Shown: positions 15,391 through 27,542 of the stretch, piece by piece | How positions within the stretch are numbered: position 1 is the stretch's first letter | Layout: every line of letters starts with the position of its first letter | Assembly (NCBI RefSeq): GCF_009758015.1 | Contig: NZ_WSEL01000009.1 | Span: 1,599,501 to 1,663,500 of the forward strand | Direction of reading: 5' to 3' | Source of the DNA: Ramlibacter pinisoli | Lineage (GTDB): Bacteria; Pseudomonadota; Gammaproteobacteria; Burkholderiales; Burkholderiaceae_C | Length of the DNA: 64,000 bases | Made by a program: the position numbers and the translations under genes | Notes under the pieces: generated by a model | What the model saw: the letters and a program-made list of their open reading frames with translations, nothing else | Database searches by the model: none | Told to the model about the DNA's origin: nothing

Positions 15391-18039
15391 ATGCGAGAAG
15401 GCCAATCCACCGTCGTCTACCGGGCCGATTACCAGGCGCCCGCGTACTGGATCGACACCGTCGAACTGTGCTTCGATCTCGACCCTGCCAAGACCCGGGT
15501 GCTCAACCGGATGACGGTGCGCCGCAACCCGGACGTGCAGCCGCAGCCGCTGCGCCTGGACGGCGACGAACTGGTGCTCTCGCGGGTGCTGGTCGACGGC
15601 CAGGGCACCTCGTTCAAGATGGAAGGCAGCCGGCTGGTGCTGGAGAACCTGCCGGCGGGCAACGAGCCGTTCAAGCTCGAGATCTTCACCACCTGCGCAC
15701 CGGCCAAGAACAGCAAGCTGATGGGCCTGTACGTCAGCAACGACTCGTTCTTCACCCAGTGCGAGGCCGAGGGCTTCCGCCGCATCACCTACTTCCTCGA
15801 CCGGCCCGACGTGATGGCCAGCTACACCGTGCTGCTGCGCGCCGACCGCCGCAAGTACCCGGTGCTGCTGTCCAACGGCAACCTGGTCGAGCAGGGCGAC
15901 CTGGGCGACGGCCGCCACTTCGCCAAGTGGGTCGACCCGTTCCGCAAGCCCTGCTACCTGTTCGCGCTGGTAGCCGGTCAGCTGGTGTGCCGCGAACAGC
16001 GCATCCGCTCGCGCACCGGGAAGGACCACCTGCTGCAGGTGTTCGTGCGTCCCGGCGACCTGGACAAGACCGAGCACGCGATGAACTCGCTGATGGCCTC
16101 GGTGGCCTGGGACGAGGCCCGCTTCGGCCTGCCGCTCGACCTCGAGCGCTTCATGATCGTCGCCACCAGCGACTTCAACATGGGCGCGATGGAGAACAAG
16201 GGCCTGAACATCTTCAACACGAAGTACGTTCTGGCCAGCCAGGCCACCGCGACCGACGTCGACTTCGGCAACATCGAGTCGGTGGTGGGACACGAGTACT
16301 TCCACAACTGGACCGGCAACCGGGTCACCTGCCGCGACTGGTTCCAGCTGTCGCTCAAGGAAGGCCTCACCGTCTTTCGCGACCAGGAGTTCAGCCAGGA
16401 CCTGGCCGGCGAGGCCTCGGCCCGCGCGGTCAAGCGCATCGAGGACGTGCGGGTGCTGCGCACCGCCCAGTTCCCCGAGGACGCCGGCCCGATGGCGCAC
16501 CCGGTGCGCCCCGACCAGTACCTGGAGATCAACAACTTCTACACCGTGACGGTGTACGAGAAGGGCGCCGAAGTCGTCCGCATGATGCAGACCCTGGTCG
16601 GCCGCGAGGGCTTCCGGCGCGGCATGGAGCTGTACTTCCAGCGCCACGACGGCCAGGCGGTCACCTGCGACGACTTCGCCCAGGCCATCGCCGACGCCAA
16701 CCCGCAGAGCCGGTTCGCCGGGCTGCTGCCGCAGTTCAAGCGCTGGTACAGCCAGGCCGGCACGCCCCGCGTCACGGCGCGCGCGAGCTGGGATGCCGCC
16801 AGCGGCACCTACGGCCTTGCGCTGTCGCAGAGCTGCCCGCCGACGCCGGGCCAGGGCGCCAAGGAACCGTTCGTGATCCCGATCGCCTGGGGCCTGCTGG
16901 ACGCCGGCGGCCGCGAGGTCGCCAGCGGCATGCACGTGCTCACGCAGGAGAGCGAGACGCTCACCGTGCCCGGCCTGCAGGGCGAGCCGGTGCCCTCCAT
17001 CCTGCGCGGGTTCACCGCGCCGGTGGTGCTGGACTTCGACTACACCGATGCCCAGCTGCTGACCCTGCTGGAGCACGACACCGATCCGTTCAACCGCTGG
17101 GAAGCGGCGCAGCGGCTGGCCGTCAACCGTGCGCTGGCCTGCATCGGCGACCCCGCCGGCGGCCCGCTGCGGCTCGACGCGCCCTACATCGAGGCCATGC
17201 GCAGCATCCTGCGCCACCCGACGCTCGATGCCGCCTTCAAGGAGCTGGTGCTCACGTTGCCCGCCGAGGCCTACATCGGCGAGCAGCTCGAGGTGGTCGA
17301 TCCGCAGCGGGTGCATGCGGTGCGCGAATCGATGCGCGAGCAGCTGGCCACCGCGCTGCTGGACGACTGGGCCTGGGCCTGGGACGCGCACCGCGAGAGC
17401 GGCGCCTACAGCCCCGACCCGGTGTCGTCGGGCCGGCGCGCCCTGGCCGGGCTGGCCCTCACCCACCTGTGCATCGCCGCGCGCCAGGCCGGCGACACGG
17501 TGTGGCCGGGCAAGGCCTACCAGCGCTTCAAGGACGCCTCCAACATGACCGACCGCTTCAACGCCCTGGCGGCGCTGGTGGTGGGCGGCCAGGACCTGGC
17601 GCGGCCGGCGCTGGAGCGCTTCCACGCGATGTTCCGCGACGAGGCCCTGGTGCTCGACAAGTGGTTCGCGCTGCAGGCCGGCGCGCCCGACCGCGGCGGC
17701 AACATCCTGCCGGCGGTGCGCCAGCTGATGCACCACCCGGACTTCAACATCCGCAACCCGAACCGCGCCCGCAGCCTGATCTTCAGCTACTGCAGCGCCA
17801 ACCCGGGCGCCTTCCACCGCCCCGACGCGGCCGGCTACGTGTTCTGGAGCGAGCGCGTCATGGAGCTGGACGGCCTGAACCCGCAGGTGGCGGCGCGGCT
17901 GGCGCGCGCGCTGGACCGCTGGCGCAAGCTGGCCGAGCCGATGCGCGGCGCCGCCCGCGAGGCCATCGCCCGCGTGGCCGCCAAGCCCGACCTGTCCAAC
18001 GACGTGCGCGAGGTGGTCACCCGCGCCCTCGCCGACTGA
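15391..18039 (+). CDS. pepN: Aminopeptidase N (M1 family)
   Basis: Zinc aminopeptidase of 882 residues that removes N-terminal residues from peptides in the cytoplasm. The exopeptidase motif [11 protein letters not shown] lies near residue 265. The zinc site is HEYFH (His301, Glu302, His305) with Glu324 after 18 residues in [13 protein letters not shown]. The length matches PepN of Proteobacteria, including the C-terminal helical superhelix. It starts 26 bases after prfB and is followed 20 bases on by fbp, so prfB-pepN-fbp may be cotranscribed. A GTG six bases upstream of the chosen ATG is possible. Confidence 0.95.
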
Positions 18040-18059
18040 CCGAACGCCCCAGGACCGAC

Positions 18060-19070
18060 ATGAGCAAGATCTCCCTCACCCGCTACCTCGTCGAGCAGCA
18101 ACGCGTCGACGGCCTCATCCCCTCGCAGCTGCGGCTGCTGCTCGAAGTCGTGGCCCGGGCCTGCAAGAGCATCAGCCACGCCGTCAACAAGGGCGCGCTG
18201 GGCGGCGTGCTCGGCTCGGCCGGCAGCGAGAACGTGCAGGGCGAGATGCAGAAGAAGCTGGACATCATCGCCAACGAGGTGCTGATCGAGGCCAACGAAT
18301 GGGGCGGCCACCTGGCCGGCATGGCCAGCGAGGAAATGGACGGCATCTACGTGGTGCCCAACCGCTACCCGCACGGCGAGTACCTGCTGCTGTTCGACCC
18401 GCTGGACGGCTCGTCCAACATCGACGTCAACGTGAGCATCGGCACCATCTTCAGCGTGCTGCGCATGCCCGAGGACGACCGCGGCGTGGACGAAGGCGAC
18501 TTCCTGCAGCCGGGCAACCGCCAGGTGGCGGCCGGCTACTGCGTGTACGGCCCGCAGACCACGCTGGTGCTGACGGTGGGCGACGGCGTCGCGATGTTCA
18601 CGCTCGACCGCGAGCAGGGCTCGTTCGTGCTCACCCAGGAGAACGTGCGCATCCCCGAGGACACGAAGGAATTCGCCATCAACATGTCGAACATGCGGCA
18701 CTGGGACGCCCCCGTGAAGCGCTACATCGACGAGTGCCTGGCCGGCAAGGAAGGCCCGCGCGGCAAGGACTTCAACATGCGCTGGGTCGCCTCCATGGTG
18801 GCCGACGTGCACCGCATCCTCACGCGCGGCGGCATCTTCATGTACCCCTGGGACAAGCGCGAGCCCGGGAAGCCGGGCAAGCTGCGCCTGATGTACGAGG
18901 CCAACCCCATGGGCTGGCTCGTCGAGCAGGCGGGCGGCGCCGCCACCAACGGCCACGAGCGGATCCTAGACATCCAGCCGACGAAGCTGCACGAGCGGGT
19001 GAGCGTGATCCTGGGGTCGAAGAACGAGGTCGAGCGGGTCACGTCGTACCACCGCGAAGCCAAGCAGTAG
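18060..19070 (+). CDS. fbp: Class I fructose-1,6-bisphosphatase
   Basis: Hydrolyses fructose 1,6-bisphosphate to fructose 6-phosphate in gluconeogenesis; 336 residues, normal for class I. The metal-binding signature [18 protein letters not shown] is near residue 115-132. The C-terminal signature [21 protein letters not shown] and an N-terminal TRYLVEQQ are also present. It starts 20 bases after pepN. In Burkholderiales that fix CO2 a second copy often sits in a cbb operon, but no Calvin-cycle gene is nearby here, so this is the housekeeping gluconeogenic copy. Confidence 0.96.
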
Positions 19071-19231: not shown

Positions 19232-20212
19232 TCACCCCACCAGCGGCGCCAGCAGCGCCATCCCCTGCTCCCAGTCCGTGGCCATCCCCTGCAGCAGTTC
19301 GTCTGCCGCGAGCGGCCGGCCGGAATGGACGGCGCGCGCGCCCTTGAGGATCAGCGTCTTGTTGGCCTGCGCGATCGCCTCGAAGCAGGCGGCCGGATCG
19401 TCCAGTTCCGGGTAGCCCTGGGTGGCCATCCAGCGCAGGTGCGCGGCCAGCAGTTCGAAGGCAGCGCCGGCCTGCCGCACCGAGGCGAACGCCCACTGGT
19501 GGTAGTGCGCCAGGCCCTGCTCGCGCAGCGTCGGCAGGTCCTGCTCGAGGCGGGCGGCGAAGCGCGGGAACGGGTTGGTGCGCGGCCGCCACCCATGGTG
19601 GTCGCACAGCAGCTCGAACGCCAGGTCGGACAGGTCGGACGGCGTGCGCCGCACCAGCCGGTCGATGCGCACCACCTCGGCGAACAGCGGCAGGAAGGCC
19701 GGATCGGGCGCGGCGTCGAGCCGGAACAGCTGGCGGAAATCCTCGCCCTCCAGCTCGAAGTAGCCGGCGTTGTGGAAGTAGCCCAGGCGCTGGCGCGCGA
19801 GGTCGAGCTCCGCCATCAGGATGGTGGTCTTGGTGTGGGCGCGCCGGTAGTCGGTGCCGGCGGTGTCGGGCAGCCAGAACGCATCGGACTCGGTGGCGAT
19901 GAGCTTGCCGGCGGCCAGGTGCTCCTGGGCATGCTCGACGAGCGGGCGCCAGATGGTGAGCTCCTGCACGTCGACGCCGTACAGGCTGCGCAGCTCGGCT
20001 GCGGGCGGCTTGAAGAACGTCCACTGGTCGCCCTCGAAGTCGACCGCCAGCGTGAACGACAGCATCGCGAGCGGCTCCAGCCCCAGCGTGTGCAGGAACC
20101 CGATCCACAGGTCGGCGTAGCAGTTCTTCTCCGGCCAGGCCGCGGCATCGCCGTGCAGGCGGTGCCGGCGGTAGCTCTCCGGCACCAGGCCGGGCAAGGC
20201 GGCGAGGCTCAT
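19232..20212 (-). CDS. DUF1839 family protein
   Basis: Soluble protein of 326 residues with no signal peptide. It matches my recollection of the DUF1839 family: N-terminal PESYRRHRLHGDAAAWPEKNC, central FEGDQWTFFKPP and TDYRRAHTKTTI, and C-terminal ANKTLILKGARAVHSGR. Its biochemical role is unknown. Family members recur next to aminoacyl:carrier-protein ligases and carrier proteins, as here: it is the third gene of a leftward operon, 20 bases after the ligase. The close packing suggests it works on or with the aminoacylated carrier protein. That role is inference from context. Confidence 0.75.
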   Translation of the reverse strand: MSLAALPGLVPESYRRHRLHGDAAAWPEKNCYADLWIGFLHTLGLEPLAMLSFTLAVDFEGDQWTFFKPPAAELRSLYGVDVQELTIWRPLVEHAQEHLAAGKLIATESDAFWLPDTAGTDYRRAHTKTTILMAELDLARQRLGYFHNAGYFELEGEDFRQLFRLDAAPDPAFLPLFAEVVRIDRLVRRTPSDLSDLAFELLCDHHGWRPRTNPFPRFAARLEQDLPTLREQGLAHYHQWAFASVRQAGAAFELLAAHLRWMATQGYPELDDPAACFEAIAQANKTLILKGARAVHSGRPLAADELLQGMATDWEQGMALLAPLVG

Positions 20213-20232
20213 GGGACGGCTCCCGCTCGCAC

Positions 20233-21147
20233 TCAGGGCCACAGCTGCGCGCGCACGGTCTGCGGCCAGTCGGCCGGGTCGTAGCCGTGCGTCTTGATCA
20301 ATGCCAGCGTCACCCGCTCCAGGCCGAAGCCCAGGCAGGCCGTGTGCGCCACCGAACTGTCGGCATTGAGGATGCCGAACTTGCCGCTGAAGTGGTCCTG
20401 GTGCCAGTTGAACGAGCAGATGGCGGTGGGCTTCTCGCGCGAGATCACCGGGCACAGGATCTCGAATTTCAGCCGCTGGTCGACCTGGTTGGCGGCCATC
20501 ATCCGGCCGGCGCGGCCGAAGAACGGATCGGACGCGACGTCGCTGTCCACCGGCAGTTGCAGCCCGCGCAGCAGTTCCAGGCCGCGCTGCAGCCAGGCGT
20601 CGCGCCAGGCCACCACCTCGTCGGGCCGGCCGACCCGGATGTACTCGCGCATGCGGAAGTGCTGCAGCCGCGTGGGCTCGTCCGACGGCTCGTGGCGGAA
20701 CACCCAGTTCATCACCGTGACCAGCCGGCCGCCCGCCGGCAGCAGGCCGCTGAAGGTGGGATAGACGGGATAGCAGGCAGCCGGCGTCAGCATGACGTCG
20801 GTGGGGGCCAGCAGGTCCTCCCAGCGCTCGCCGGCATGCACGCGCGCCGACAGCTCGCGGGCCTGCTGGTCGCTGCCGCGGAAGCTGTGCACCGATCCCG
20901 CCAGCTGCGGGAAGTTGTCCATGTAGCCGACCTTCTCGATCAGGGCGCGCGCCAGGATGGGCGGGAACATCAGTTCCTGGGCGTTGTCCGGCGCGGCCGT
21001 GCGGGTGACGAGGTCGTCGAAGCGGCGCAGGATGTCCTCGAACACGGGGCCGCGGCCGTAGGCACCGGCGATGCCGGTGGGCACGATCAGGCCGTTCTCG
21101 ATCAGCGCTTCGGTGAAGCCGTGGATTTCGTAGGTGCGGATGTCCAT
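20233..21147 (-). CDS. Aminoacyl:carrier-protein ligase (SerRS-like class II synthetase homologue)
   Basis: The 304-residue product resembles the catalytic core of atypical seryl-tRNA synthetases but has no N-terminal tRNA-binding arm. It belongs with the Bradyrhizobium amino acid:[carrier protein] ligases, which activate glycine or alanine with ATP and load it on the phosphopantetheine arm of a small carrier protein. Class II motif 2 is WVFRHEPSDEPTRLQHFRMRE (about 148-168) and motif 3 is CLGFGLERVT (about 271-280). Candidate zinc ligands are Cys125, Glu168 and Cys271, the Cys-Glu-Cys set expected for this group. It directly abuts the dehydrogenase gene (TGA then ATG), and a dedicated carrier protein is encoded divergently. 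Amino acid specificity is unknown. Confidence 0.85.
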   Translation of the reverse strand: MDIRTYEIHGFTEALIENGLIVPTGIAGAYGRGPVFEDILRRFDDLVTRTAAPDNAQELMFPPILARALIEKVGYMDNFPQLAGSVHSFRGSDQQARELSARVHAGERWEDLLAPTDVMLTPAACYPVYPTFSGLLPAGGRLVTVMNWVFRHEPSDEPTRLQHFRMREYIRVGRPDEVVAWRDAWLQRGLELLRGLQLPVDSDVASDPFFGRAGRMMAANQVDQRLKFEILCPVISREKPTAICSFNWHQDHFSGKFGILNADSSVAHTACLGFGLERVTLALIKTHGYDPADWPQTVRAQLWP

Positions 21148-22320
21148 TCAGGCAGCGTCCTTGTAGACCAGGAGCATCGACGCGTTCTTGGCGGCGATGC
21201 GATCGTTGGAAATCATGAGCGAGCCCGACAGGGCGTCGCGGTAGTGCCGCCCCAGGGCGAAGGGGCTGTCGTTCTTGTAGCCGAGGATGCCGACGATCTG
21301 CAGCGCCTGGTGCACGATGCGCGGTGCCGCCTCGGAGCTGGCGATCTTGAGGTTGTTCAGCCGCAGGGCCCAGCCCATGCCCATCAGCTCCTCGCGGTCG
21401 TCGCCCAGCGCATCGAAGTCGCGTGCGGCCGACAGCCAGTTCTGCTTGAGGGCCTGCAGCTGCACCTGCAACTCGGCCAGGCGGGTGGCGGTGGGCGGCA
21501 CCGTGCCGGGCGTTTGCCGGGCCTGGCCGCGCACGAAGCTGGCGGCCTTGGCCACCGCGCCAGCCGCGATGCCCCACCACAGCGCCGACCACAGGATGTG
21601 CGAATACGGGACCATGGTCTGGGCCGAACAGTCGGCGAAGGCGCCGGGCACGATCTGCTCCACCGCGCCGCTCGAGCGCAACTGGAAGCCCGGACTGCAG
21701 GTACCGCGCATGCCCAGCGTGTCCCAGCTCGTCGTCTGGGTCAGCGTGCAGTCCTCGCGCCGCACCAGCACCAGCACCTGGTCGCTGCGGGCCGCCTCCT
21801 CGTCCTTGCGGCAGGTGACCAGGATGGCATCGGCATGCGCGCAGTAGGAGCCGGTGGTGGCGTCCTTGTCGAGCTGGAACCGGTCGCCGGCGCGGCGCAC
21901 TGCGCACACGCTGGAACGCGTGTCGCCGGACGGGCCGACCTCCGACGTCATCGAGGCCAGCAGATCCTGCCGGCGCACCAGGTCGCGCAGGTAGTCGCGC
22001 AGGTAGTCGCTGCCCATCCCGTGGCGCGCCAGGCAGGCGAGCTGGATGTAGTGCATGGCCAGCACCATGGCGCTGGATCCGCAGGCCTGGGCCAGCGCGG
22101 CACACAGCTGCGAGAGCTCCTGCACGTTGCAACCTGGCCCGCCGAGTTCACGCGGGACCGCGGCGGCCAGCACGTGGTCCTCTCGCAGCGCGGCCAGGGT
22201 CTCGATCGGAAAGCGCGCCCTGGCATCGACGTCCGGCGCCTGCGCCGCGGCCACGCCGGCCGCGACCTTGCGCACGGAATCGATGAGTTGCGGAAATCCC
22301 GTTGCGGTGTGCGAATCCAT
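21148..22320 (-). CDS. Acyl-CoA dehydrogenase-like flavoprotein
   Basis: The 390-residue product has the length and outline of the acyl-CoA dehydrogenase superfamily: a helical N-terminus with VPRELGGPGCNVQELSQLCAALAQ, a middle FAD region with LASMTSEVGPSGD and WDTLGMRGTCS, and a C-terminal bundle with QALQIVGILGYKNDSP. It is first in the leftward operon with the aminoacyl:carrier-protein ligase. Related enzymes oxidise aminoacyl groups tethered to carrier proteins (for example prolyl-S-carrier protein in pyrrole formation), so desaturation of the loaded amino acid is a reasonable hypothesis. The start is the ATG at 22320; the frame is open further upstream into the divergent gene. I could not single out the catalytic base. 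Confidence 0.8.
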   Translation of the reverse strand: MDSHTATGFPQLIDSVRKVAAGVAAAQAPDVDARARFPIETLAALREDHVLAAAVPRELGGPGCNVQELSQLCAALAQACGSSAMVLAMHYIQLACLARHGMGSDYLRDYLRDLVRRQDLLASMTSEVGPSGDTRSSVCAVRRAGDRFQLDKDATTGSYCAHADAILVTCRKDEEAARSDQVLVLVRREDCTLTQTTSWDTLGMRGTCSPGFQLRSSGAVEQIVPGAFADCSAQTMVPYSHILWSALWWGIAAGAVAKAASFVRGQARQTPGTVPPTATRLAELQVQLQALKQNWLSAARDFDALGDDREELMGMGWALRLNNLKIASSEAAPRIVHQALQIVGILGYKNDSPFALGRHYRDALSGSLMISNDRIAAKNASMLLVYKDAA

Positions 22321-22444
22321 GTCTTGCTCGTTCTCCCATGCATGAGAAGGTGTGAGCCACACTAGCATCGCCGTTCTCGTCCGTGGGGCGGAGAAGAGCC
22401 CGAAATTGCCGAGCAAGCACCTCATCCAGCCACTCGAACGAGCC
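22321..22444. promoter_or_regulatory. Divergent control region of the carrier-protein gene cluster
   Basis: This 124-base gap separates the two divergent operons and must hold both promoters. It contains two small symmetric elements: TTCTC...GAGAA around CATGCATG at 22331-22348, and GTGTG-AGC-CACAC at 22350-22362. These are possible operators for joint control. I see no convincing -35/-10 pair. Confidence 0.4.
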
Positions 22445-22861
22445 ATGTGGGCCACGTTGCCCGCCGTGGTCGGGCTCGGCATCGACCTCGTCCACATCCC
22501 GCGCATCGAAGAATCGCTGCGCGCGTTCGGCGACGCGTTCGCAACGCGGCTGTTCACCGAGCGCGAGCAGGCCGACGCGCGCGCCGTGCCGGGCCGCGAG
22601 GCGGAGGGCTTCGCGCTGCGCTTTGCCGTCAAGGAAGCAACCATCAAGGCGCTGTCGCTCAGCGACGATGGCGTGAACTGGCGCGAGATGGAGGTCGTTG
22701 CCGGCACCGGCGGCGCATGTCGCCTCGTCTTGCATGGCGTGGCACGCGACAAGGCGCGGGAACTAGGCGTTGCCAGGGCGCTAGTCTGTTGGAGCCATGA
22801 GGGCGCATACGCGATGGCGACGGTTGCGGCTGTGTCCGACACGGTCGGGTCAGGTCGCTGA
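22445..22861 (+). CDS. AcpS-type holo-[carrier protein] synthase
   Basis: Small 4'-phosphopantetheinyl transferase of about 138 residues that converts an apo carrier protein to its active form using CoA. The two AcpS signatures are present: GLGIDLVHIPRIEES near the N-terminus, with the Mg-binding Asp, and FAVKEATIKALS, with the catalytic Glu. FTEREQ between them is also typical. It sits 15 bases upstream of the carrier-protein gene, so it is probably a dedicated activator of that protein and not the housekeeping AcpS, which normally accompanies pdxJ. The ATG at 22445 fits family length; the frame stays open for 93 bases upstream without a better start. Confidence 0.88.
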   Translation: MWATLPAVVGLGIDLVHIPRIEESLRAFGDAFATRLFTEREQADARAVPGREAEGFALRFAVKEATIKALSLSDDGVNWREMEVVAGTGGACRLVLHGVARDKARELGVARALVCWSHEGAYAMATVAAVSDTVGSGR

Positions 22862-22876
22862 ACAGAATGCGACGCC

Positions 22877-23134
22877 ATGAGCACTCTGCTACAAGCTGAC
22901 ACCACCATCCGCCGCGTGCTGCGGGACCACGGGCGCCTGGGCGCCGACCCCGAACAGCTGGCCCCGGACGCCGACCTCTACCAGCACGGCATGACCTCGC
23001 ATGCGAGCGTGAACGTCATGCTCGCGCTCGAAGGCGAGTTCGACGTCGAGTTCCCCGACCACATGCTCAAGCGCAACGTGTTTCGCAGCATCGGCTCGAT
23101 CGAGCGTGCGCTGCAGGAGCTGATGGCGGACTGA
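22877..23134 (+). CDS. Acyl/aminoacyl carrier protein
   Basis: Carrier protein of 85 residues. The phosphopantetheine attachment serine is Ser41 in LYQHGMTSHASVNVML, where fatty-acid carriers have DSL; the TSHA version matches carriers served by aminoacyl:carrier-protein ligases. Helix II is followed by EGEFDVEFPDHML and a C-terminal helix, as expected for the four-helix fold. It lies between the dedicated AcpS-type gene and the family 2 glycosidase gene in one rightward operon, and opposite the ligase and dehydrogenase operon. Expected role: swinging-arm scaffold that holds the amino acid while it is modified. Confidence 0.9.
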   Translation: MSTLLQADTTIRRVLRDHGRLGADPEQLAPDADLYQHGMTSHASVNVMLALEGEFDVEFPDHMLKRNVFRSIGSIERALQELMAD

Positions 23135-23140
23135 GCCTCC

Positions 23141-25651
23141 ATGCCCATGGATGGCCTGCCGCGGCGCGGGGCGCTGCCCGCGCGCTGGCGCCTGTGCGCC
23201 ACCGAACCCGGCGCACCGGCGCCGGGGGAATCCGCCGACTGGGTGCCGCTCGAACGGCCCCTCACCGCAGCAGCGGCCTGGCGCGCTGCCGGCCGCTGGT
23301 CGCTCGATGGTTCACCGCACGACTTCGACGCCCAGGACTGGTGGTACGCCGCGCAGGTCGACGGCGCCGCACTGCAAGACATGGTGCTCGGCTTCGACGG
23401 GCTCGCCACCTTGGCCGAGGTGCGGCTCAACGGGCAGACGCTGCTGCACTCGGACTCGATGTTCCTCGCCCACCAGGCGCGGCCCGCAGCACTCGTGCAC
23501 GCAGGCGCGAACGAGCTGCTCATCCGCTTCGCCTCGGTACAGGCCGCCCTGCAGCAACGCCGGCCGCGGCCGCGCTGGCGCACGCCCATGGTGGCGCACC
23601 AGCAACTGCGCTGGATGCGCACCAGCTTGCTCGGCCGCACGCCGGGATGGTCCCCGCCGGCCGCCCCGGTTGGCCCCTGGCGCGACGTGTGGTGTTGCCC
23701 CGAGGACCAGGCCATCGCCTGGCGGCTGCAGCCGTCGCTGGTTGCGGGCCAGGGGCAGTGCGCGGTCGAGCTGCGCGCCCCGGCCGGCTGGGCGCGGGAT
23801 CTGGTCGAGGCGGAGTTCGTGCTGCGTGGCCCCGACGGCGCCGAGCAGGTGCGGCCGTTGGAGAGCCATGGCGGCGAACGCTACACCGCCCACGTGACGG
23901 TGGCACAGCCGGCACTGTGGTGGCCGCATACGCATGGCGAGCCCCTGCTCTCCACGGCGGCCCTGCGCACCCGGTCGCGCAGCGGCGCCGTTCGCACCCT
24001 TGGGCTGGGGACGGTCGGCTTTCGCCAGGTCGAGATCGATCGCACGGGCGACGGCTTCGCGCTGCGGGTGAACAGCGAGCGCATCTTCTGCCGCGGCGCC
24101 GGCTGGACGCCGCTCGATCCGGTCAGCCTGCGCTCCGGCGCCGCCGAATGTCGCGCCGCGGTCGGCCAGGTGCGCGACGCCGGCCTGAACATGCTGCGCC
24201 TGGCCGGCACGCTGCCGCCCGAGGAAGACCACTTCTACGACGCCTGCGACGCGCTCGGCGTGCTGGTGTGGCAGGACTTCCCGTTTGCCAGCATGGACTA
24301 CCCGTTCGACGATGCCGGCTTCGCGGACCTGGCGGCACGCGAGGCCGCCCAGCTCGCCGCGCGCCTCGGCCATCGCGCCTGCGTCGCGGTGCTGTGCGGC
24401 AACAGCGAAGTCGAACAGCAGGCGGCGATGTGGGGGGCGCCGCGCGAGCTGTGGCAGCCGGCGTTCTTCCACCGGCAGCTGCCGGCGCTGTGCGCGCAGC
24501 ACGCCCCCGCCACGCCGTACTGGCCCTCGAGCGCCCACGGCGGCGCCTTCCCGCACCAGGCCGACACCGGCACCACCTCGTACTACGGCGTCGGTGCCTA
24601 CGAGCGACCACTGGACGACGCGCGCCGCAGCGGCCTGCGCTTCGCCACCGAGTGCCTGGCCTTCGCCAACATCCCCGACGACGCGGCGCTGGCCCGCCTG
24701 CCCGGTGGCCTGGCCACGCGCGTGCACCACCCGCAGTGGAAGGCGCGCTCGCCGCGCGACTTGGGCGCCGGCTGGGACTTCGACGACGTGCGCGACCACT
24801 ACCTGCAGCGGCTGTTCGACGTCGATCCCGCCCGGCTGCGCCACCAGGACCACGACCGCTACCTGGCGCTGGGCCGGCTGGCGACCGCGGAGGCGATGGC
24901 GGCCGCGTTCGCCGAGTGGCGCCGGCCGGCATCGGGCTGCGCCGGCGCGCTGGTCCTGCAGCTGCGCGATCTCTGGGCCGGTGCCGGCTGGGGACTGCTC
25001 GACGAGCAAGGCGACCCCAAGGCCTGCTGGCATGCCGTGCGCCGCTGCCTGCAGCCGCTGGCCGTGTTCCTCACCGACGAGGGCGGCAACGGGCTCGCCG
25101 TGCACGTGGTCAACGACACGCCGCTGGAGCGTCGGCTGGTGCTGGAACTGTCGGCGTGGCGCGAGGGCGACGTGCAGGTGGCCCGGGCGGAGCGTCCCGT
25201 GGTGGCCACCGCGCGCGGCGGCTGCACCCTGAATGCGATCGAGGTGCTCGGCCAGTTCCTCGACCTCAACCACGCCTACCGCTTCGGCCCGCCGTCTTGC
25301 GAGGTGGTCAGTGCACGCCTGCTGGAGGACGGCCGGGAGGTCGCGACCGCCCTGCACTTCCCGCTCGGGCTGGCGCCGCTGGTGGCCACGCGTTCGCGCG
25401 ATCTCGGCCTGGCGGCCGCAGTCGACATCACCGGCGATGGTGAAGCGGTCGCCACGGTGCGCACCGGCCGGTGCGCGGTCGGCGTCCATCTCGACGTTCC
25501 CGGCTGGCAGGCGGCCGACGATCACTTTCACCTCGCACCCGGTGCCTCGCGCCAGGTCCACCTGCGCCGCACGGTGGCGGGGGCGGTGCTGGCCGGCCAG
25601 GTCCTTGCCCTGAATGCCGCTGCGGCGGTCCCGCTGGAGACGCAGCCATGA
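23141..25651 (+). CDS. Glycoside hydrolase family 2 protein, beta-mannosidase-like
   Basis: The 836-residue protein has the GH2 plan: an N-terminal jelly-roll domain (FDAQDWWYAAQVDG), an immunoglobulin-like domain, a TIM barrel and C-terminal beta domains. The predicted acid/base is Glu423 in CGNSEVEQQAAMWG and the nucleophile is Glu504 in RFATECLAFANIP; RGAGWTPLDP and VWQDFPFA are also conserved in beta-mannosidases. No signal peptide is seen, so it should be cytoplasmic. Its place in an operon with a carrier protein and AcpS is unusual. It may trim a sugar from an intermediate or act in an unrelated step; both are guesses. It starts 6 bases after the carrier-protein gene and overlaps the next gene by ATGA. 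A second ATG lies 6 bases in. Confidence 0.85.
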   Translation: MPMDGLPRRGALPARWRLCATEPGAPAPGESADWVPLERPLTAAAAWRAAGRWSLDGSPHDFDAQDWWYAAQVDGAALQDMVLGFDGLATLAEVRLNGQTLLHSDSMFLAHQARPAALVHAGANELLIRFASVQAALQQRRPRPRWRTPMVAHQQLRWMRTSLLGRTPGWSPPAAPVGPWRDVWCCPEDQAIAWRLQPSLVAGQGQCAVELRAPAGWARDLVEAEFVLRGPDGAEQVRPLESHGGERYTAHVTVAQPALWWPHTHGEPLLSTAALRTRSRSGAVRTLGLGTVGFRQVEIDRTGDGFALRVNSERIFCRGAGWTPLDPVSLRSGAAECRAAVGQVRDAGLNMLRLAGTLPPEEDHFYDACDALGVLVWQDFPFASMDYPFDDAGFADLAAREAAQLAARLGHRACVAVLCGNSEVEQQAAMWGAPRELWQPAFFHRQLPALCAQHAPATPYWPSSAHGGAFPHQADTGTTSYYGVGAYERPLDDARRSGLRFATECLAFANIPDDAALARLPGGLATRVHHPQWKARSPRDLGAGWDFDDVRDHYLQRLFDVDPARLRHQDHDRYLALGRLATAEAMAAAFAEWRRPASGCAGALVLQLRDLWAGAGWGLLDEQGDPKACWHAVRRCLQPLAVFLTDEGGNGLAVHVVNDTPLERRLVLELSAWREGDVQVARAERPVVATARGGCTLNAIEVLGQFLDLNHAYRFGPPSCEVVSARLLEDGREVATALHFPLGLAPLVATRSRDLGLAAAVDITGDGEAVATVRTGRCAVGVHLDVPGWQAADDHFHLAPGASRQVHLRRTVAGAVLAGQVLALNAAAAVPLETQP

Positions 25652-27453
25652 CCCACCCGACGCACGCCCATACCGACGCGGTGCCGCTGCATGTCGAGGC
25701 CGCCGGTGGCTGGTGCCTGGGCTGGTTCCATCCACCCCAGGCGCCGGCGCACGACATCGCCGTCGTGCTGTGCCCGCCCATCGGCCACGAGGCGGTCTGC
25801 AGCTATCCCACGCAGGTGCAGCTCGCCCGCTCGCTGGCGCAGGCCGGCCTGCCGGTGTTCCGGTTCGACTACCACGGCACCGGCGATTCGGCCGGCGACG
25901 ACAACGACCCCGGCCGCGTCGCGGCCTGGCTGGCCAGCGTCGAGGCAGCGGTCGCGCAGGCCCGTGCCTGTTCGGGCGCAGGGCGCATCGCGCTGCTGGG
26001 CATCCGGCTGGGCGCCACGCTGGCCGTCGCCGCCGCGGCCCGGCTCGGCGGTGTCGACCGGCTGCTGCTGTGGGCACCCTGCCCCAGCGGCAAGGCCTTC
26101 GTGCGCGAACTGCGCGCCGCCGGGGTGGTGGATGCCGACGGCGGCGTGCACGCCTTCGGCTACCGCTACACCGCCGCCACCGTGCAGGACCTGCTGGCCC
26201 TGGACGCAACCCGTCTGGACGCCGCGCCGGCACGCCAGGTGCTGGTGGTGGGCCGCGACGACATCCCGGGCGAGGGGCCGCTGCCCAAGGCGCTGCGCCA
26301 GCTCGGGATCGAGGTGACGGTCCAGGTCCTGCCGGGTTTTGCCGCCATGGTCGACGAGCCGCGCGCCGGCGTGCTCGCGCCCGAGACGCTGCGCACCGTG
26401 GCCGACTGGCTGGCTGCCGGCGTGCCGCTGCGCAGCGGCGACACCCCGCCCGGCCCGACCGTCCGGGCGCCCGACGGCATCACCGGTCCGGTGCGCGAGC
26501 GCCTGCTGCAACTGCGGCCGGGTCAGCCTCTGCACGGGGTGGTGGCGGAGCCGGTCGCAGGCGCGCCGCGCGACCGGTGCGGCCAGACGGCCATCGTGCT
26601 GCTCAACGTGGGCGGCAATCACCGCATCGGTCCGCACCGCTTCTACGTGACGGCGGCGCGAGCCCTGGCCGCGGCCGGCCACCGCGTGCTGCGCCTGGAC
26701 CTGCCCGGCATCGGCGACAGCCCGCCCCTGGCCGGACAGCCCTGGGCCAGCCTGTACGACAAGGACGCGGCAGCCGACGTGCGCGCCGCGCTGGACGCGC
26801 TGTCCCAGCGCGGCTGCCGCGAGTTCGTGCTGATGGGCATCTGCTCGGGCTCGTACGTCGCCTTCCAGACCGCTCTGGTCGATCCGCGGGTGGGCAGCGT
26901 GGTGCTGATGAACTCGCGCCTGCTGGAATGGACCCCCGGCCAGCCGGGCGACACCTGGCAGTCGTCGATGCAGAACTACGCCAAGTCCAGCAGCTGGTAC
27001 CGGCGAGCGCTGCTGCGGGCCGAGACCTGGCAGCGCCTGGTCCGCGGCGAGATCGACGTGCCGCTGATCGCGCGCCGCTTCCTCGCCCTGGCGGCGGCCC
27101 GCCTGCGGCGGCTGGTGGCGCCGGGCAGCGGCGGCAGCCTGACGGACCGGATGCGCCGCCTGTGCCGGCGCGGCTGCAGGGTGCTGATGCTGGTGTCGGA
27201 CGCCGACGACGGGCGCGACTACGTGGAGTTCCACTTCGGCGCCGGCGGCCACCGCCTGCGCGGCCAGCCGGGGTTCCGCATGGAGATCGTGCCGGACGCC
27301 GACCACACCTTCTCGCGCCCCGGCAACCAGCCGGGGGTGGTCGAGGCCCTGTTGCGCCACCTGGACCAGCGCACGGCCGCCGCGCCGGCCCCCGCCCCCG
27401 CTTCGGCCCGGGTGTCGGCGCCCGATCAGCTGGCGCTGCGACCGCCGCTATAA
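25648..27453 (+). CDS. Tandem alpha/beta hydrolase (two fused domains)
   Basis: The 601-residue product is two alpha/beta hydrolase domains in series. Domain 1 (about 1-270) has VVLCPPIGHEAVCSYP, FRFDYHGTGDSAG and an altered elbow ALLGIRLGATLA, where Arg replaces the usual Ser nucleophile. Domain 2 (about 300-590) has VLLNVGGNHRIGPHRFYV, RLDLPGIGDS, the elbow LMGICSGSYVAF with a Ser nucleophile, and a late His in PDADHTFS. Domain 1 may therefore be non-catalytic while domain 2 is active. Such hydrolases occur with carrier proteins in exosortase-A clusters; here one could release or transfer the carrier-bound product. It is last in the operon. Its TAA stop is part of the tRNA promoter. Confidence 0.83.
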   Translation: MTHPTHAHTDAVPLHVEAAGGWCLGWFHPPQAPAHDIAVVLCPPIGHEAVCSYPTQVQLARSLAQAGLPVFRFDYHGTGDSAGDDNDPGRVAAWLASVEAAVAQARACSGAGRIALLGIRLGATLAVAAAARLGGVDRLLLWAPCPSGKAFVRELRAAGVVDADGGVHAFGYRYTAATVQDLLALDATRLDAAPARQVLVVGRDDIPGEGPLPKALRQLGIEVTVQVLPGFAAMVDEPRAGVLAPETLRTVADWLAAGVPLRSGDTPPGPTVRAPDGITGPVRERLLQLRPGQPLHGVVAEPVAGAPRDRCGQTAIVLLNVGGNHRIGPHRFYVTAARALAAAGHRVLRLDLPGIGDSPPLAGQPWASLYDKDAAADVRAALDALSQRGCREFVLMGICSGSYVAFQTALVDPRVGSVVLMNSRLLEWTPGQPGDTWQSSMQNYAKSSSWYRRALLRAETWQRLVRGEIDVPLIARRFLALAAARLRRLVAPGSGGSLTDRMRRLCRRGCRVLMLVSDADDGRDYVEFHFGAGGHRLRGQPGFRMEIVPDADHTFSRPGNQPGVVEALLRHLDQRTAAAPAPAPASARVSAPDQLALRPPL

Positions 27454-27466: not shown

Positions 27467-27542
27467 GCCGGAGTAGCTCAGTTGGTAGAGCAGCGCATTC
27501 GTAATGCGAAGGTCGGGGGTTCGATTCCTCTCTCCGGCACCA
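27467..27542 (+). tRNA. tRNA-Thr (anticodon CGT)
   Basis: A 76-base cloverleaf with encoded CCA. The acceptor stem GCCGGAG pairs with CTCCGGC, the D arm is GCTC/GAGC, the anticodon loop is TTCGTAA with anticodon CGT, and the T arm carries GGTTCGATTCC. The discriminator is A. The first anticodon-stem pair is G-A, the other four are Watson-Crick. It reads ACG threonine codons. Confidence 0.96.

Follow-up and report, generated by a model that had tools for sequence, protein, structure and literature searches.

A conserved gene cluster of Ramlibacter pinisoli that may attach a carrier-protein-borne amino acid to a sugar

What is the end product when an amino acid is tethered to a dedicated carrier protein and oxidised there? 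The question is raised by seven genes at 19232-27453 of a 64,000-nucleotide stretch of Ramlibacter pinisoli DNA (contig NZ_WSEL01000009.1; hereafter the window), which lies on contig C9 of a 5.5 Mb genome (G000). One operon encodes a DUF1839 protein, an amino acid--[carrier protein] ligase and a flavoprotein; the other, divergent from it, encodes an AcpS-type transferase, a carrier protein, a glycoside hydrolase family 2 (GH2) protein and a tandem hydrolase. The sequence comparisons support the proposal of the initial annotation that the genes form a single predicted pathway, one that charges the carrier protein with an amino acid and then oxidises it. This pathway is conserved and real, and it had largely been predicted already. 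As its product we favor an aminoacylated sugar, the amino acid being amide-linked to an amino sugar that most likely belongs to a precursor of a surface polysaccharide, a reading that we hold with about as much confidence as doubt.

Of the new findings, we rank first the CcbD-like fold predicted, from a weak model, for the DUF1839 protein (326 amino acids, minus strand, 19232-20212; PF08893, E 1.5e-103), together with the close dependence of this protein on the ligase. DUF1839 occurs in 16 of 398 genomes of the phylum, and in 16/16 a copy stands beside the ligase gene; two genomes have a second copy, at L073 15232-16452 (G471, about 5 kb from the first) and at L105 (G398, contig C159). The best fold matches of the model are CcbD, CtaG and AziU3, which share its fold over most of the chain at 9-14% sequence identity in the structure alignments. 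Cys31 (codon 20120-20122) is present in 30 of 31 sequences, and His126 and His147 in all 31; for the enzymes of the CcbD/LmbD, CtaG, AziU3 and BtrH kind, the triad is given as C(T/S)H (PMC10318531). Because of the CcbD-like fold, the gene linkage and the conserved Cys and His, we predict that DUF1839 is a carrier-protein-dependent Cys amide synthase that carries out the aminoacyl transfer. The fold match thus singles out the likely transfer enzyme and suggests a sugar-borne amine as the acceptor. Several results weigh against this assignment. The DUF1839 model is weak (mean predicted local distance difference test score, pLDDT, 67; residues 84-178 below 50), Foldseek returned no match for it better than E 1e-3, and the VIA caveat applies that mostly helical models may reach comparable Z by chance. 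At the sequence level, DUF1839 meets BtrH_N only weakly, with 1/28 members at E 0.15 and an hhalign probability of 16% (0.2% for one control profile), the BtrH_N profile having been built from 7/12 places after exclusion of wrong or partial longest frames. Sequence searches of the PDB gave vinculins only for the profile of 28 DUF1839 sequences (best E 0.61) and thymidylate synthase only for a single sequence (E 0.92).

The gene arrangement around the ligase is more than chance. The ligase family is sparse, being found in 10 of 150 genomes of the window's family (G000 included) and in 44/398 phylum genomes, 28 of them above the curated cut-off. Using blastp against the window proteins and a tally by hand, we compared the neighborhoods of the 37 loci above the cut-off (the window's among them) with those of 13 out of 17 lower-scoring places, and here call loci with DUF1839 type I (25, with L018 having it only as fragments) and the other 12 type II. 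Type I loci have the carrier protein, the flavoprotein and a whole DUF1839 gene in 24 cases each, a whole GH2 gene in 23, the tandem hydrolase inside the fetched stretch in 16 and AcpS in 8. Ligase and flavoprotein are present in all type II loci and a carrier protein match in ten, whereas DUF1839, GH2 and the hydrolase gave no blastp match in the fetched stretches of any of the twelve; the initial annotation had suggested just such a survey of the GH2 and hydrolase genes. At the 13 places below the cut-off, the ligase alone was matched. In L018, the ligase and the tandem hydrolase are present and GH2 and DUF1839 leave only short matches (15456-18070, near the contig end).

Annotated records, in which DUF1839 appears in 59 and the ligase in 93 (40 of each among the matches listed), agree with this distribution. 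Plasmids of Azospirillum lipoferum and A. brasilense have the carrier protein, flavoprotein, ligase, DUF1839, GH2 and an alpha/beta hydrolase in a single run, as does Mycetohabitans for the same six genes. Five of the set are annotated in Caballeronia, where the hydrolase does not adjoin, five in Phyllobacterium together with a convergent hydrolase, and four in Rhizobium binae with DUF1839 last, the gene tables of the annotated plasmids being incomplete. Loci of Alpha- and Betaproteobacteria thus have five genes in common, those for the carrier protein, the flavoprotein, the ligase, DUF1839 and GH2, to which the tandem hydrolase is often added, and the recurrence of this core in named members of both speaks against chance. 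Because this core is shared, and because all six genes stand in one Azospirillum run, GH2 is a member of the set. The two operons belong together, as had been proposed, since they form one run in Azospirillum and show the window's divergent layout in four Ramlibacter loci. Homologous neighborhoods that never hold both operons would have refuted the initial annotation, and these loci show the contrary. Among named genomes, the ligases closest to that of the window are from four Ramlibacter species (82-87% identity). AcpS and the divergent layout are found in all nine named loci (L052 being the same stretch as L017). In this survey, the divergent two-operon layout with a dedicated AcpS appeared only among loci of the window's family or of the Burkholderiales; one locus of the same family, L012, has the one-run form.

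Pfam and NCBIfam gave neither a non-ribosomal peptide synthetase nor a condensation domain in any of the seven cluster proteins; for this reason, and because DUF1839 matches amide synthases, a peptide-making pathway was considered and dropped. The initial annotation had proposed a non-ribosomal pathway with oxidation of the tethered amino acid by the flavoprotein and its release or transfer by the tandem alpha/beta hydrolase-fold protein (601 amino acids, plus strand, 25648-27453); GH2 would then be an accessory. The protein joins a hydrolase-2-like N half and a hydrolase-1-like C half of the exosortase-associated kind, so its tandem fold stands, but both halves score below curated cut-offs (144.4 of 168.45 bits for TIGR03100, 106.9 of 202.75 bits for TIGR03101) and the N half lacks a Ser nucleophile (GIRLG), the position being Arg in 18/24 sequences and Gly in 6/24. 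Its model (pLDDT 78.5) retrieves ordinary esterases, lipases and other alpha/beta hydrolases in a fold search. The C half has Cys399 at the nucleophile position (GICSG) and Asp552-His553 in 24/24 sequences, which is compatible with acyl transfer, and its GxCxG motif is reminiscent of polyhydroxyalkanoate (PHA) synthases. In addition, 23/25 type I genomes have a hydrolase-1-like match of at least the strength E 2e-12, 20 of them within 25 kb of the ligase, as against 1/12 type II genomes and none within that distance, the single match being far from the ligase. However, side-by-side hydrolase-1-like matches are also seen at places without the ligase nearby (for example in G478 and on contig C11 of G119), DUF1839 is tied to the ligase more tightly, and it is DUF1839 whose fold matches amide synthases; its CcbD-like fold suits the transfer step better, and we consider the initial reading as a whole improbable. 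The Cys-bearing tandem protein is nevertheless, with a fusion found in L061, the next new point after the DUF1839 fold: the L061 protein has an N-terminal domain of the polysaccharide flippase type (PF13440, E 5.3e-12), and L062 has a frame of similar length whose start is near-identical.

The GH2 beta-mannosidase-like protein (836 amino acids, plus strand, 23141-25651; PF22666, 65 bits, cut-off 27) has beta-mannosidases as its nearest solved relatives (best 5n6u, E 3.3e-54). Glu423 and Glu504, which we take to be the catalytic pair, are present in 31/31 sequences and align with Glu residues of beta-mannosidase 6bye. A crude check found no N-terminal hydrophobic stretch, so the protein is probably cytosolic.

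The chemistry of the oxidation step depends on the flavoprotein (minus strand, 21148-22320), which has Pfam acyl-CoA dehydrogenase (ACAD) domains. Its nearest solved relative is DnmZ, presumably a nitrososynthase, at E 2.6e-18, the best of 39 solved matches; 5gj7 and 5z8t are the other top matches, and the 39 include 3mxl, which is named nitrososynthase. We take the catalytic Glu of the dehydrogenases to be expected just after the RDA motif of the C-terminal domain. By ungapped extension past RDA, this place is Ile or Val in 38/38 sequences of both branches. HMMER alignments to DnmZ and to 5gj7/5z8t pass through the loop without a Glu at the expected place, and those to 2dvl and 7w0j, the two dehydrogenases printed, end at RDA, before the loop. 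The initial description as acyl-CoA dehydrogenase-like is thus borne out for the fold, but the usual C-terminal dehydrogenase Glu seems to be absent. Group D monooxygenases share the ACAD fold, include N-hydroxylating members and in some cases use carrier-bound substrates, according to the part of a review that treats them (PMC6165268). Because of the kinship to DnmZ, the Ile/Val at the Glu place and this precedent, oxygenation is our first choice for the predicted activity. The alternative, dehydrogenation to an imine or dehydroamino acid as by prolyl-carrier-protein dehydrogenases, is compatible with every other reading of the cluster and seems to us possible but doubtful. It draws on the fold itself and on the name acyl-CoA dehydrogenase carried by most of the 39 solved matches and by the best NCBIfam model (105.7 bits, cut-off 600), on a weak match to the prolyl-peptidyl carrier protein (PCP) dehydrogenase model (33.1 bits, cut-off 650), and on an acid, Asp or Glu, that stands three residues after the expected place in 37/38 sequences (His in one); the Ile/Val at that place and the course of the HMMER alignments speak against it. 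Two further observations count against the pathway that we favor, namely that the cluster encodes no flavin reductase and that a metagenome-assembled genome among the nine named loci (L055, 9178-9980) keeps AcpS, carrier protein, GH2, hydrolase, ligase and DUF1839 with no match to the flavoprotein; either the redox step has been lost there or the assembly is faulty.

Where would the aminoacyl group go? Polysaccharide genes are commoner near the ligase than expected, although not beside the window's cluster. With three export and assembly families as markers (PF02563, PF02397 and PF02706), a marker lies no more than 15 kb from the ligase in 10/25 type I cases, when at most 1.5 would be expected at random, and 0/500,000 simulations reached 10. 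Neighbors include glycosyltransferases, a Wzy_C protein and Wzz/Wzc in L069, and a glycosyltransferase, Wzz and a flippase-type protein in L072. L020 (3117-8483) has WecG, a PgaB-like deacetylase, a DltA-like amino acid adenylating ligase and a HetI-type phosphopantetheinyl transferase beside the cluster, and L056 (16658-20206) has a PgaB-like deacetylase and a DltA-like ligase. In both, two amino acid loading systems stand within one polysaccharide locus, and a small gene there looks carrier-protein-like by eye (in L020 it has no NCBIfam match at 1e-8). Against a surface glycan as the target, the markers were picked after the neighborhoods had been seen, related genomes are not independent, so that the statistics overstate significance, and in 15/25 type I loci all three markers are absent from the 15 kb around the ligase. 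The type II control is 0/12 with PF02563 or PF02397 alone and 3/12 once PF02706 is added, these being Wzz genes within 15 kb in three loci of one genus (P ~0.02). Moreover, the cluster in the window has neither a glycosyltransferase gene nor an export gene next to it, and the Poly_export, Bac_transf and Wzz matches of G000 all lie on contig C3.

These points bear on a rival product, a small secreted amino-sugar amide of the lincosamide or butirosin kind that GH2 would deprotect and the tandem hydrolase release or mature. The window's cluster stands alone, no glycosyltransferase lies inside the Azospirillum, Mycetohabitans and Phyllobacterium runs, and the closest DUF1839 folds, CcbD, CtaG and AziU3, belong to enzymes of small-molecule pathways. 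We nonetheless consider a small metabolite unlikely, since the window's own cluster holds no exporter or resistance gene, and since a surface glycan is suggested both by the flippase-hydrolase fusion and by the surplus of polysaccharide genes around the ligase. If the acceptor is a polysaccharide, as in our preferred reading, the modification would be a new one of the cell surface in bacteria of soil and plants; some copies of the cluster stand beside nif genes on plasmids of Rhizobium. These copies are found at L137 10239-16411 (Rhizobium gallicum plasmid) and L139 10246-13871 (R. acidisoli plasmid), both from Phaseolus nodule isolates, where the cluster follows nifHDK...NX-fdxB and lies immediately 3' of a gene annotated 'exopolysaccharide production repressor protein'. 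On a plasmid of Rhizobium sp. NLR16a (L101, 11191-13301), epmA and a lysine-2,3-aminomutase-like gene stand just upstream of the cluster, with efp on the opposite strand. The cluster is also carried by Sphaerotilus hippei (L058); the Sphaerotilus sheath was considered as a target and dropped because the passage on its composition in PMC11087309 gives only sugars.

Combining these data on the identity, linkage and conservation of the genes, on their residues and on fold similarity, we propose the following route. AcpS (138 amino acids, plus strand, 22445-22861; PF01648, E 2.8e-15; TIGR00556, 81.6 bits, cut-off 45.35), a 4'-phosphopantetheinyl transferase by family, would arm the dedicated carrier protein (85 amino acids, plus strand, 22877-23134; PF00550, E 3.6e-8; NF005480, 100.6 bits, cut-off 72) at Ser41 of its TSHA site (GMTSHAS, codon 22997-22999 on the plus strand, a position computed from the chosen start). 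The ligase would adenylate a small amino acid, which by analogy with its relatives is probably glycine or alanine, and load it as a thioester. The flavoprotein would then oxygenate the tethered aminoacyl group, perhaps at nitrogen, as its closest solved relative suggests, and the DUF1839 Cys would take over the aminoacyl group and pass it to a sugar amino group, as CcbD does in lincosamide synthesis. The acceptor would most likely be an amino sugar borne by a surface polysaccharide precursor, either cytosolic or lipid-linked, on which GH2 and the Cys-bearing tandem hydrolase may trim or transfer before or during export. A more specific version, in which an N-oxidised amino acid such as N-hydroxyglycine is amide-linked to an exopolysaccharide amino sugar by way of DUF1839 and a Cys transferase that some bacteria have joined to a Wzx-type flippase, we advance only tentatively.

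Such ligases reportedly load glycine or alanine on a carrier protein in Bradyrhizobium, in a PNAS study of 2010, and a carrier protein presumably belongs to the bll0957 system there. The window ligase (304 amino acids, class II seryl-tRNA-synthetase-like, minus strand, 20233-21147) is a member of profile NF005479 (PRK07080) at 407.9 bits (cut-off 357), and it matches the solved bll0957 structures at a best E of 6.8e-77 with 44.0% identity over 277 positions. Identity to bll0957 is 94.6-95.7% for three type II ligases, 61.6-71.0% for five others and 42.6-53.0% for the eleven type I ligases compared. By sequence, then, the solved enzyme is nearest the branch whose fetched loci are without DUF1839, GH2 and hydrolase, which is a new observation. 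A FastTree of 44 ligases places nine type II members in one clade (support 1.0) and does not make type I a clade of its own (node support 0.15), hinting that the type II branch may have lost the extra genes. Near the ligase in 7/12 type II loci is a protein of about 300 amino acids (for example L074 8485-9450 and L084 13532-14434), of which two copies were scanned with Pfam, neither giving a match at 1e-4; it is a candidate acceptor enzyme of that branch.

As for the locus itself, gene calls with Pfam and NCBIfam recover all seven genes, the 124-base divergent intergenic region (22321-22444, between gene starts) and the TSHA site with Ser41 where the initial annotation had put them, the gap and the Ser41 numbering depending on starts picked among several possible ones. 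No sigma-70-like promoter or terminator scored in 22200-22600. The sole Rfam match is tRNA-Thr(CGT) at 27467-27542, which starts 14 bases past the end of the tandem hydrolase gene.

In the titles and abstract openings of the literature searched, no product is named for the seryl-tRNA-synthetase-derived carrier-protein ligases; no experimental test of the predicted pathway was found in that literature, and excerpts of PMC12419801 and PMC11941606 hold nothing on the cluster. One close known system is the predicted StRS-based sugar aminoacylation neighborhood. The section describing it, a note in proofs, links the ligase to genes for an acyl carrier protein (ACP), for a redox enzyme, for the conserved but uncharacterised Atu2574 and for a glycosidase, and to liposaccharide genes; it predicts that the amino acid is joined as an amide to a cell-surface sugar, with the aminoacyl group probably oxygenated and the uncharacterised protein as amide ligase (PMC2922099, 2010). 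Our cluster resembles it in genes and in predicted chemistry, and from its description Atu2574 appears to be a DUF1839 protein; since much the same reading was predicted there in 2010, the novelty of ours is lowered. GH2, which the initial annotation had placed outside the described set, is therefore within it as the glycosidase. The same section is silent on the tandem Cys hydrolase, as it is on AcpS, the flippase fusion, a CcbD-like fold and two branches. The Bradyrhizobium system likewise has a ligase, with solved structures, beside an ACAD-fold flavoprotein, bll0958 being given in the part of PMC10888616 concerned as an acyl-CoA dehydrogenase (acd) adjoining bll0957, but it is kin to the type II ligases. 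With CcbD/LmbD, CtaG, AziU3 and BtrH, DUF1839 would share a carrier-protein-dependent Cys enzyme fold, which in CcbD couples an amino acid and an amino sugar, although it is a separate Pfam family. The exosortase A-associated hydrolases 1 and 2 (TIGR03100/TIGR03101) are the best match of each tandem half, but the window protein has both halves in one chain. Finally, in teichoic acid D-alanylation (DltA/DltC) a carrier-borne amino acid ends on a surface polymer, much as we propose here, with the difference that the window ligase is class-II tRNA-synthetase-like and that DltA-like ligases are separate enzymes encoded beside the clusters of L020 and L056. If the exopolysaccharide route were true, it would be a Gram-negative counterpart of teichoic acid D-alanylation and would provide a new kind of polysaccharide substituent.

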